DNA of 64,000 nucleotides, from assembly GCF_008932245.1 (NCBI RefSeq), contig NZ_CP034909.1, positions 2,418,001 to 2,482,000 of the forward strand, given 5' to 3'. The position numbers were made by a program, and so were the translations under genes. Below are positions 48,125 to 51,903 of this stretch, one piece after another. Positions within the stretch are counted from its first letter, which is position 1, and each line of letters opens with the position of its first letter. Below the pieces are notes generated by a model. It was not told where the DNA came from and ran no database searches. It saw only the letters and a list, made by a program, of their open reading frames with translations. The DNA is from Sinorhizobium alkalisoli. GTDB taxonomy: Bacteria; Pseudomonadota; Alphaproteobacteria; Rhizobiales; Rhizobiaceae.

Positions 48125-48439
48125 CTACGCCCCCTCGACGACCGTATAGCCCTCGAACTTCGGCGGCCCCAGATACATGGCGCGATTGTCGCCGGCATTG
48201 CGGTGGGCCGCCCGGAAGTTTTCCGATTTCGTCCAGGTGAGGAACGCGTCCTTGCTTTCCCAGGTCGACTTGGAAATGAACGGCGTATAGCCCTCTTCCG
48301 GCACGCTCTCGCCACGCAGCAGATGAAAATCGATGAAGCCGGGCATTTCGGCAAGACCCGAATCGCGCCCCTTCCAGACGGCCTCAAAGGCCCCCTCCTG
48401 TCCGAGGGCGACACGGAAACGGTTCATCGCGAAATACAT
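48125..48439 (-). CDS. IsdG-type heme-degrading monooxygenase (ABM fold)
   Basis: A 104-residue ABM-fold protein with the IsdG/IsdI catalytic triad in register: Asn6 (AMNRF), Trp69 (FLTWTKSENF) and His79 (FRAAHRN). The Trp-to-His spacing of ten is the same as in IsdG. It should open the heme ring and release iron in the cytoplasm, as HmuQ does in Bradyrhizobium. It ends the minus-strand set with the 88-residue protein, the DUF2325 protein and TonB. The local heme importer is a pseudogene, so its heme source is unclear. Confidence 0.75.
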   Translation of the reverse strand: MYFAMNRFRVALGQEGAFEAVWKGRDSGLAEMPGFIDFHLLRGESVPEEGYTPFISKSTWESKDAFLTWTKSENFRAAHRNAGDNRAMYLGPPKFEGYTVVEGA

Positions 48440-49304: not shown

Positions 49305-49319
49305 TGACTTTATAACTCA
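49305..49319. promoter_or_regulatory. Candidate RirA iron-responsive (IRO) box
   Basis: TGACTTTATAACTCA fits TGA-N9-TCA, the rhizobial RirA-type iron box. It is inside an AT-rich segment with near dyad symmetry, about 138 bases upstream of the DUF2325-IsdG gene set. Confidence 0.5.
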
Positions 49320-49379: not shown

Positions 49380-50294
49380 TCAGCGTTTGAATTCAAGCGG
49401 TATGGTAAAAGCCCAGTTGTCGCGCCCGGCGCCGGCCGGGATTGCCGGAAAGGGCGCTGCGCCACGCACGGCCCCGAGCGCGGCCTCGTCGAGAAGCGCC
49501 GAGCCGGCGCTCTTGGCGATGCCAACGCCGGCAAGCCCCCCATCGGAAGTGACGGTGAAACGTACATGCGCGACGCCGCGCAGGCCCTGACGCTTTGCCT
49601 CCGCGGGATAACGGAAGGCGCGGTTCAGCCTCCGCCGCACTTTGCCGGGATAATTCGAGACGGCCGCGTTACCCGCCTGTGATGCGCTGCCTTTGGCGCC
49701 CGTGGCCGCACTCGCAGCCGCATTTTCCACGCCGTCCGCCTGACCTTTGACCTGCGTCTTCGCCTGGCTTCCGGCTTCGCCCGCCTTCTTCCGCGCGACC
49801 TTCTTTCTTTTCACCGGCTCCTTCTTCGGTTCCGGCTTTTCGACGTTTTCCACGGTCTCCGGCGGCTCCGGCCTCGGATGCGGAACGACGGTCTCGACCG
49901 GGGCGACACTTGTCACCACTGCCGGCTCCGCGATTTCGGCGATCGGCACCTGCTCGGCCGGGAGGATCACGTCCGCTTCCGCGGGCGCAACCTCGGACGG
50001 CGGTTCGGAAACGAGATCGGGGATCGTCGGCTCGACCTCTTCGACCGCCTCTTCTACCGGCGGGATCTCTCTCGGCGCCAGTTCCGCCGGCGTCTCCTCG
50101 GTCGGCTCGACCACGTCGGACAGATCGCCGGCCTGTACTGTCTCTTCGAACGCGTTGCCGAGCAGCGCAACCTCCATGGCGGCGCCCCCGGCCATCTGAA
50201 TGTCGTCTTCGTCGGGCTCGAACAGCATGGCGCCGCCGGCATGCGCGAGCAGCGACAGGGCGATCGCCCCGGTCCATTTGACGATTTGCTTCAT
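49380..50294 (-). CDS. tonB: TonB family energy transducer
   Basis: A 304-residue protein with an N-terminal membrane anchor (about residues 8-25, GAIALSLLAHAGGAMLF), a long Pro/Glu/Val-rich periplasmic linker with a Lys/Arg-rich EPKKEPVKRKKVARKKA stretch, and a C-terminal TonB domain (YPGKVRRRLNRAFRYPAEAKRQG...VTSDGGLAGVGIAKSAG). It energises outer-membrane receptors for heme or siderophores. It lies between the secreted protein gene and the DUF2325 gene, facing away from the hmu scar. Confidence 0.9.
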   Translation of the reverse strand: MKQIVKWTGAIALSLLAHAGGAMLFEPDEDDIQMAGGAAMEVALLGNAFEETVQAGDLSDVVEPTEETPAELAPREIPPVEEAVEEVEPTIPDLVSEPPSEVAPAEADVILPAEQVPIAEIAEPAVVTSVAPVETVVPHPRPEPPETVENVEKPEPKKEPVKRKKVARKKAGEAGSQAKTQVKGQADGVENAAASAATGAKGSASQAGNAAVSNYPGKVRRRLNRAFRYPAEAKRQGLRGVAHVRFTVTSDGGLAGVGIAKSAGSALLDEAALGAVRGAAPFPAIPAGAGRDNWAFTIPLEFKR

Positions 50295-50334: not shown

Positions 50335-50769
50335 TCAGCCCTTGAGTTCCACCGCCGATTTGGAACCGGTCTTCAGACCCCTCATGCAGGCGCCCTTCTC
50401 GATCCCCTCGCCGACGCACGCCGGGGCATCGTTGATGAGCAAGCTTTTGACCGCCTCGCATTTCGTGCCCGGCAGATCGAATTGCCGGACCTTCGTCTTG
50501 CCGGCAGGCAGGTCCCGAAAATCGAGCACGGCCATTCGCTCGACCAAACCTTTCTGGTCGAAGAGGATGAATTCGAACGAAGCCTTGGAAAGCGACTGCT
50601 GGAGACTGTTGTCGGCAACAAACGTGAGCTTGCAGCCTTTCTCCGACGGGGCAATCTCGTTGAGCTCGATCGAGAGTCCGCCGGATCGAACGTCCTCTGC
50701 GGCAACGGTTCCTGCCATGCCGAGAACCACGATTGCGGCCGAAAAGGCCGAAAATGAAAGATGGGCCAT
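50335..50769 (-). CDS. Secreted protein of unknown function upstream of tonB
   Basis: A 144-residue protein with a signal peptide (about residues 1-24, ending AGTVAAED). The mature part has KGCKLTFVADNSLQQSL, LFDQKGLVERMAVLDFRDLPAGKTKVRQFDLPG and three cysteines that might form a disulfide. I recall similar proteins beside rhizobial tonB genes but cannot assign a function. It is transcribed with tonB, 40 bases apart. ATG at 50769 is preferred over an upstream in-frame codon because it opens directly into the signal peptide. Confidence 0.7.
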   Translation of the reverse strand: MAHLSFSAFSAAIVVLGMAGTVAAEDVRSGGLSIELNEIAPSEKGCKLTFVADNSLQQSLSKASFEFILFDQKGLVERMAVLDFRDLPAGKTKVRQFDLPGTKCEAVKSLLINDAPACVGEGIEKGACMRGLKTGSKSAVELKG

Positions 50770-50965
50770 CGTTTCGTCACCCCTGGTCCGCGACCCCGCC
50801 CACCAACTCTTCGCCGACGGCGCGATCAAATAACTTGACTTGAATTATCCCGTATTGCGTAAAAAAATATGAGTAAAGAAGTCAAGATAGCAAATGGAAG
50901 ACGCGGGGATAAAAGGGGGGATTTTGCCTGAAGTTCTCGCCTTCGCGAGCGGGCCGAAGCCGTGA

Positions 50966-51377
50966 ATGACCCCGAAACCGAACACTCCCTGCAGCCGACC
51001 GCGATCATGAACGGGGCGGCCGATGCGTCGCTCGGCAATGTGCTCGGCTGACTCCCGGCGATGCACCCGCCGATTGGGCGCTGAGCACGCGCGATCGCAT
51101 CATCATCCTCGACATCCGCCTGACGCGGGCCGTGCTCGGCATGCTGGTCGGTGCGGCCCTTGCGGTCTCCGGCGCCATCATGCACGACCTCAATCTTACC
51201 GCCATGTTCGCCGATCAGATGATGATGATGAAATCCGGCCGCATCCGCGCCCGCGGCGCGCCGGGCGACGTCCTCACCGACGAGCCCATGGAAGCCGTGT
51301 TCGGCTGCCGGCTGCAGGGGGGCGTCGCGCCGGCGCGCGACGTCCCCTTCGTGTTGCCGCAGTCGGCCGCCCGCTGA
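50966..51377 (+). pseudogene. Scar of the heme importer: hmuU N-terminal fragment fused to hmuV C-terminal fragment
   Basis: The first recognisable part reads DASLGNVLG, then an in-frame TGA (51049-51051) where Trp would be expected, then a one-base loss near 51057. The frame continues DAPADWALSTRDRIIILDIRLTRAVLGMLVGAALAVSGAIM, a FecCD/HmuU permease N-terminus. At about 51183 it passes in frame into HDLNLTAMFADQM...VLTDEPMEAVFGCRL...PFVLPQSA, the C-terminus of the HmuV ATPase. The rest of hmuU and most of hmuV are missing, as are hmuS and hmuT. No functional product is expected. Confidence 0.85.
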
Positions 51378-51540: not shown

Positions 51541-51903
51541 ATGGCGACTGGTCTCTTCTCAAGTTCGAGCACGAGGAAGCACAACGGCGGATCCGGCGAG
51601 ACGTCGATCCAGGACCAACTCGACGAAATCCGCAACGACGTCGGAAAACTCGTGGCCTTGCTGGCGGATCGCGGCCTCGCCGCATCCGAGGAGGCGAAGG
51701 CGAGGGCGCAAGGCGCCCGTGCCAGAGCGGCAACAGACCTCGAGGACCTGCTGGCAAGCGGAGAACAGATGCTCTCCGAACTGCGCGGCCGCTATGCGGA
51801 TACCGAAAGACAGCTTCGCACGGTCGTGCGCGAACACCCGGTCGCAACGCTCGGCACCGCGGCGGTAATCGGACTGATCGCGGCCGCTGTCCTGCGCAGG
51901 TAA
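51541..51903 (+). CDS. DUF883/ElaB-like membrane-anchored protein
   Basis: A 120-residue protein with a long amphipathic coiled-coil-like helix (about residues 20-95) and a C-terminal transmembrane helix (VATLGTAAVIGLIAAAVLRR) ending in arginines, the DUF883 (YqjD/ElaB) pattern. Such proteins are tail-anchored and associated with stationary-phase ribosomes. GGAGG lies 8 bases before the ATG. With the next gene it may form a small stress-related membrane operon beside the general stress genes. Confidence 0.78.
   Translation: MATGLFSSSSTRKHNGGSGETSIQDQLDEIRNDVGKLVALLADRGLAASEEAKARAQGARARAATDLEDLLASGEQMLSELRGRYADTERQLRTVVREHPVATLGTAAVIGLIAAAVLRR

Follow-up and report, generated by a model that had tools for sequence, protein, structure and literature searches.

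A decaying remnant of the heme-uptake operon hmuPSTUV in Sinorhizobium alkalisoli and the loss of further iron-uptake loci

The hmu locus and its remnant

The window analysed here is a stretch of 64,000 nucleotides from Sinorhizobium alkalisoli (contig NZ_CP034909.1, positions 2,418,001 to 2,482,000). The genome (G000) has 6,128,433 bp in three contigs, of which C1 has 3,690,234 bp and C2 1,981,775 bp. The accessible text of the genome report describes a PacBio assembly of Ensifer alkalisoli YIC4027, a nitrogen-fixing soil bacterium and symbiont of Sesbania cannabina (PMC6689892).

In S. meliloti Ak57, the hmu locus reads tonB, a hypothetical gene, hemP (hmuP), hemin-degrading factor (hmuS), hemin-binding protein (hmuT), permease (hmuU) and ATPase (hmuV), and to the right of hmuV lie two hypothetical genes, a PAS protein, a sigma factor and rsiA1. 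These neighbours recur in the window, and this synteny supports the expectation of the first-pass annotation, made from the letters of the window, that hmuPSTUV belongs at this site. Here, 416 bp (50962-51377, + strand) replace the 4123 bp that run from the hmuP start to the hmuV end in Ak57. The record CP090106.1 (3.7 Mb), labelled plasmid pSymB, carries hmu, tonB and rsiA1; set against the replicons of S. meliloti, its size suggests the chromosome instead. The features of the locus are as follows.

48125-48439, - strand: hmuQ, predicted heme-degrading enzyme, intact (NF053649, 158.8 bits, equivalog cut-off 130; dN/dS 0.04-0.08 within the clade described below)
49380-50294, - strand: tonB-like gene, intact (TIGR01352, 72.6 bits; no internal stop in the aligned part in 11/11 genomes)
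50335-50769, - strand: divergent gene, intact, in the position of S. fredii c25200 (a match of position only; no internal stop in the aligned part in 11/11 genomes; dN/dS 0.18-0.24 within the clade)
50870-50884, no strand: TGA-N9-TCA site of the RirA-operator type, between hmuP and the divergent gene (found as a pattern in the window)
50962-50995, + strand: hmuP remnant, GTG start and about 11-12 codons (alignment to hmuP of four intact relatives and reading frame; right edge uncertain by a few bases)
50996-51184, + strand: hmuU remnant, FecCD permease from about codon 50 in S. meliloti numbering (blastn identity 75-81% to 10 intact loci)
51049-51051, + strand: TGA in place of a conserved Trp codon (alignment)
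51180-51184, + strand: second deletion junction, hmuU/hmuV
51180-51377, + strand: hmuV remnant, final 65 codons and stop (tblastn identity 80% to HmuV)
51541-51903, + strand: right-hand neighbour, DUF883-like, intact (PF19029 match below cut-off; same place in S. meliloti)

We compared the locus by blastn with 13 others, 12 from the genus and that of S. meliloti, 10 of them intact. Two breaks were found, at about 50995 and at 51180-51184. The first fuses about 12 hmuP codons in frame to hmuU at about codon 50 (S. meliloti numbering) and took out hmuS and hmuT. At the second, ATGCA flanks both sides of the missing segment in four intact relatives, and about 1.39 kb is gone relative to the locus of genome G008. 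From the hmuP GTG at 50962, 29 codons can be read before a TGA, which stands where the same four relatives have TGG. A single base has been lost directly after it, at about 51054 by alignment to these relatives. Both changes had been noticed in the first-pass annotation, which placed the lost base near 51057, and both are situated between the two deletion junctions.

PF01032 (FecCD) aligns to 51087-51182 over profile positions 32-63 (E = 4.3e-6; 27.8 bits, cut-off 26.5). An 81-aa ORF at 51132-51377 matches the heme ATPase model NF010068 at positions 198-260 (E = 1e-17; 64 bits, cut-off for the whole protein 261). In tblastn, S. meliloti HmuU and HmuV hit the remnant with E = 7.8e-14 and 9.6e-33. 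The profiles, tblastn and the alignment thus bear out the claim that a piece of a FecCD permease is joined in frame to the HmuV C-terminus. Since the ORF holds merely FecCD positions 32-63 (of 311) and heme-ATPase positions 198-260 (of 261), most of HmuU and HmuV is missing, and neither protein is complete at this site. HmuT and HmuS gave no tblastn match at the hmu locus.

We conclude that 50962-51377 is what remains of a dead hmuPSTUV operon, with the structure hmuP'-'hmuU'-'hmuV: it lies in the same gene neighbourhood and its operon pieces are collinear, while a working HmuTUV importer would need the two complete proteins and the HmuT that the operon has lost along with HmuS. One large deletion between hmuU and hmuV followed by decay had been proposed. 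The hmuU/hmuV junction, the deletion and the decay all stand, but the remnant begins upstream, in hmuP, and there were two deletions. A single deletion was rejected because the match changes from hmuP to hmuU at about 50995, and hmuS and hmuT, which belong between those genes, are missing. Two deletions, of which the second lies at a 5-bp repeat, together with a nonsense change and the loss of one base, produced the remnant.

Could the 81-aa fusion ORF instead be a new, functional small protein? In favour, it has an open frame and is still about 80% identical to HmuV. The ATP-binding motifs of such ATPases precede the last quarter of the protein. Because that last quarter of HmuV (profile positions 198-260 of 261) is all that remains, the ORF is without an ATP-binding core, and two sister genomes have deleted different, larger parts of it. 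We consider a new protein very unlikely. One point against a decaying remnant comes from substitution rates: dN/dS of the hmuV remnant is 0.33-0.50 within the clade (31-43 codons) versus 0.04-0.29 in seven intact pairs, and 0.15-0.25 against intact genes, which is inside the range of the intact pairs. The remnant is therefore not clearly neutral; its rates are compatible with a recent loss and are no proof of relaxed selection.

Upstream of the remnant, the TGA-N9-TCA site at 50870-50884 is a putative RirA operator, the link to RirA coming from the consulted part of a study of S. fredii (PMC8822346). The site is present in all four genomes with deletions at hmu and in 13/14 loci overall, the exception under the pattern used being G016. 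The pattern is weak and no evidence by itself, with 27 occurrences in the window where about 12 are expected. A second such site lies at 49305-49319, past the other end of tonB; in S. fredii, two peaks of RirA are reported at this gene (PMC8822346, consulted part). The operator may have been retained because the divergent tonB operon also uses it.

Relatives and the history of the deletions

We examined 33 genomes of the genus, including that of the window. HmuS is encoded by 29 of these and is lacking in G000, G020 (S. sojae CCBAU 05684), G024 (Ensifer sp. LCM 4579) and G030; in G000, the HmuS profile (PF05171) found no match anywhere in the genome. An rpoB tree of 30/33 genomes (G005, G019 and G030 are left out, the last two having no rpoB match) unites G000, G020 and G024 in one clade with 100/100 support, with G000 and G024 as sisters. 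G030, which is 70% complete, falls beside this clade with weak support (74/86) in a 14-row tree of four flanking genes.

The remnants differ among these genomes. The leader meets hmuV at window position 51207 in G020 and at 51276 in G024, and both deletions are larger than, and different from, that of G000. G030 retains a piece of hmuP, the hmuU 3' end and the hmuV 5' end, and is without the hmuV 3' piece kept in the window. A single deletion common to all four genomes was rejected for G030 on account of the different hmuU and hmuV pieces that it keeps; because of this difference, its deletions are separate events. The four hmu-less genomes represent at most two independent losses. The junctions of the three clade members could be nested on one ancestral loss, and G030 and the clade may share an older inactivation.

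These relatives also bear on whether an intact operon was collapsed in assembly. The genome was assembled from PacBio data, according to the accessible text of its report (PMC6689892). In sister genomes the same genes are missing and the junctions are different, and the heme receptor and fhu loci described below are empty too. As separately assembled genomes are without the same genes, we regard an assembly error as the least likely of the readings considered here. The loss of this heme route had been suggested for the strain. It is supported there, as the genome has no HmuS match and no heme receptor above the family cut-off, but it is not peculiar to the strain and is common to its nearest relatives in the rpoB tree.

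Loss of the heme receptor and of foxA-fhuF-fhuP

A TonB-dependent hemin receptor scored above cut-off in 28/33 genomes. The same four genomes, G000, G020, G024 and G030, are without one, and in G010 it is split over two adjoining frames. With a query of one of two divergent receptor types, four genomes gave no receptor match, which is a weak test; the search at the family cut-off is broader. The receptor site, flanked by genes that we take to be trpE(G) and an extensin-like gene, has been emptied in all three clade members: G000 retains a 68-bp match to the receptor 3' end, G020 has other pieces and G024 none. The G030 contig ends at the site. Since G000 and G020 retain different pieces, some of the deletions at this locus are separate.

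The trpE(G)/extensin-like interval holds divergent TonB-hemin receptors in different species (G008, G018 and G010). Compared with the G008 receptor, that of G010 has 36% and 32% identity in its two pieces. The G018 receptor query was an over-long frame, and its tblastn matches at residues 2-266, antisense of the neighbouring gene, were set aside.

The foxA-fhuF-fhuP operon, which serves hydroxamate siderophores, is exemplified by G023, with a foxA-like gene (1395 bits, cut-off 904), fhuF (162.6, cut-off 63.85) and fhuP (733, cut-off 374). In G000 the operon's flanks are separated by 193 bp, in which tblastn with the three protein queries found no piece of foxA, fhuF or fhuP. Stray weak matches at fhu loci, such as those of the hmuV and hmuU queries (E = 0.002 and 2e-4), were disregarded. 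Fragments of fhuP remain in G020, G008, G018 and G030. In G024, about 10 kb of other sequence stands in place of the operon (C6:106858-117003). PF06276, the FhuF domain, matches 33/33 genomes; because siderophore synthetases also carry this domain, we counted FhuP instead. FhuP is above cut-off in 27/33 genomes, the exceptions being G000, G020, G024, G030, G008 and G018.

A full receptor is missing from 4/4 hmu-less genomes versus 1/29 of the others (G010; Fisher p = 1.2e-4), and fhuP from 4/4 versus 2/29 (Fisher p = 3.7e-4), although both p values overstate the case because one clade supplies three of the four genomes. The three iron-uptake loci could have decayed separately, by drift or genome reduction, with their shared use of HmuUV irrelevant. 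We give such unlinked neutral loss a substantial chance, somewhat short of even; it overlaps with the reading that we prefer below. It is favoured by the origin of three of the four cases in one clade and by the loss of fhuP without that of hmu in G008 and G018. The clade genomes are also small for the genus (about 6.1 Mb), though G010 and G018 (about 6.0 Mb) keep HmuS. It is opposed by the observation that none of the four HmuS-less genomes keeps FhuP or a full receptor (0/4), and by the sparing of the adjacent tonB and hmuQ. The pattern in G008 and G018, with fhuP lost and hmu kept, fits an order in which the clients go first without proving it, and shows that the losses are separable.

HmuUV and the pathways that depend on it

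In the consulted part of the S. fredii study, HmuU and HmuV also serve hydroxamate siderophores, and ChIP-seq in CCBAU45436 found RirA bound at hmuPSTUV/c25200-tonB (one peak), at foxA-fhuF-fhuP and at c24120 (PMC8822346). The last is called a putative hemin receptor in the accessible text of another paper (PMC12815270) and is a candidate orthologue of the lost receptor. Given the binding of RirA in S. fredii and the dual use of HmuUV, the loci missing here look like the HmuUV-dependent part of the RirA regulon. The primary source for the dual role is reportedly O Cuiv 2008.

We therefore favour, with a probability of roughly 80%, the reading that the remnant is what is left of a decaying hmuPSTUV, and that an iron-uptake module which depended on HmuUV and was controlled by RirA disappeared in steps, the loci that feed HmuUV going together with it. 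On this view, the heme receptor, foxA-fhuF-fhuP and hmuPSTUV were lost together in the lineage formed by E. alkalisoli, LCM 4579 and S. sojae, and HmuUV would have become dispensable once both client pathways were gone. We found no published report of this hmu loss among the open-access papers listed by our searches or in the consulted parts of PMC6689892, PMC12815270 and PMC8822346.

Replacement is a further explanation: another ABC system or route took over heme import, and only this copy became redundant. Besides the remnant, the genome has two strong and three weak FecCD matches. Both strong ones are on the chromid, adjoined by ABC ATPases and binding proteins, which favours replacement. 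However, S. meliloti HmuU shares 87-89% identity with three orthologues from intact genomes but only 43% and 37% with these two permeases, and the scores of the adjoining binding proteins against the EitA and FhuP models stay below cut-off. Most of the 33 genomes, whether or not they keep hmu, encode FhuP-like proteins with comparable scores. There is also neither HmuS nor a heme receptor above cut-off for such a route. These data make replacement improbable.

The strain probably makes a siderophore of its own, since C2 carries an IucA/IucC-type cluster. This cluster (1937500-1949500, at about 1.94 Mb) comprises a PALP enzyme, an octopine-dehydrogenase-like protein, the IucA/IucC synthetase, an MFS carrier, a binding protein and a TonB siderophore receptor. 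The models nearest to its synthetase are rhizoferrin FslA and staphyloferrin B, both below cut-off.

HmuQ has a match in 32/33 genomes. The sole exception, G018, has no HmuQ match yet keeps HmuS and the hmu operon. Among G000, G020 and G024, the dN/dS of 0.04-0.08 for HmuQ indicates strong purifying selection; HmuQ is therefore selected where no heme importer was found. This conservation suggests that the role of HmuQ goes beyond the digestion of imported heme, and the enzyme may be retained for turnover of the cell's own heme.

Taken further, HmuUV may act in Sinorhizobium as an inner-membrane hub shared by its heme and hydroxamate-siderophore clients, to be given up only after both have gone, and the main task of HmuQ may be the recycling of the cell's own heme rather than the digestion of imported heme. 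We advance this pair of proposals tentatively, as a generalisation that we think has a little less than an even chance of being right.

Across three chromosomal loci, this lineage is naturally knocked out for a dual-use transporter and for the receptor and binding-protein genes that feed it. In such strains one could test, without engineering, whether heme and hydroxamate siderophores can cross the inner membrane by another route and what function HmuQ has when the cell apparently imports no heme. A narrowed iron diet is predicted for this symbiont of saline-alkaline soils.

Compared with hmuPSTUV of S. meliloti and S. fredii, the locus has the same position, neighbours, promoter-side site and gene order, and its remnants align to hmuP, hmuU and hmuV. 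It differs from both in having lost hmuS and hmuT and in the truncation of the remaining three genes, so that no working importer is possible. Like other deletion scars and pseudogenes in bacteria, it shows a nonsense change, a small indel and a deletion whose junction lies at a short repeat, with end points that differ between sister species. As a deletion scar it is ordinary in kind. Unlike ordinary scars, it belongs to a set of dispersed loci, placed under one regulator and one transporter by the S. fredii study, that are missing together while the adjacent HmuQ is constrained. This pattern, in which a dual-use transporter and both its clients are missing, is of moderate interest.
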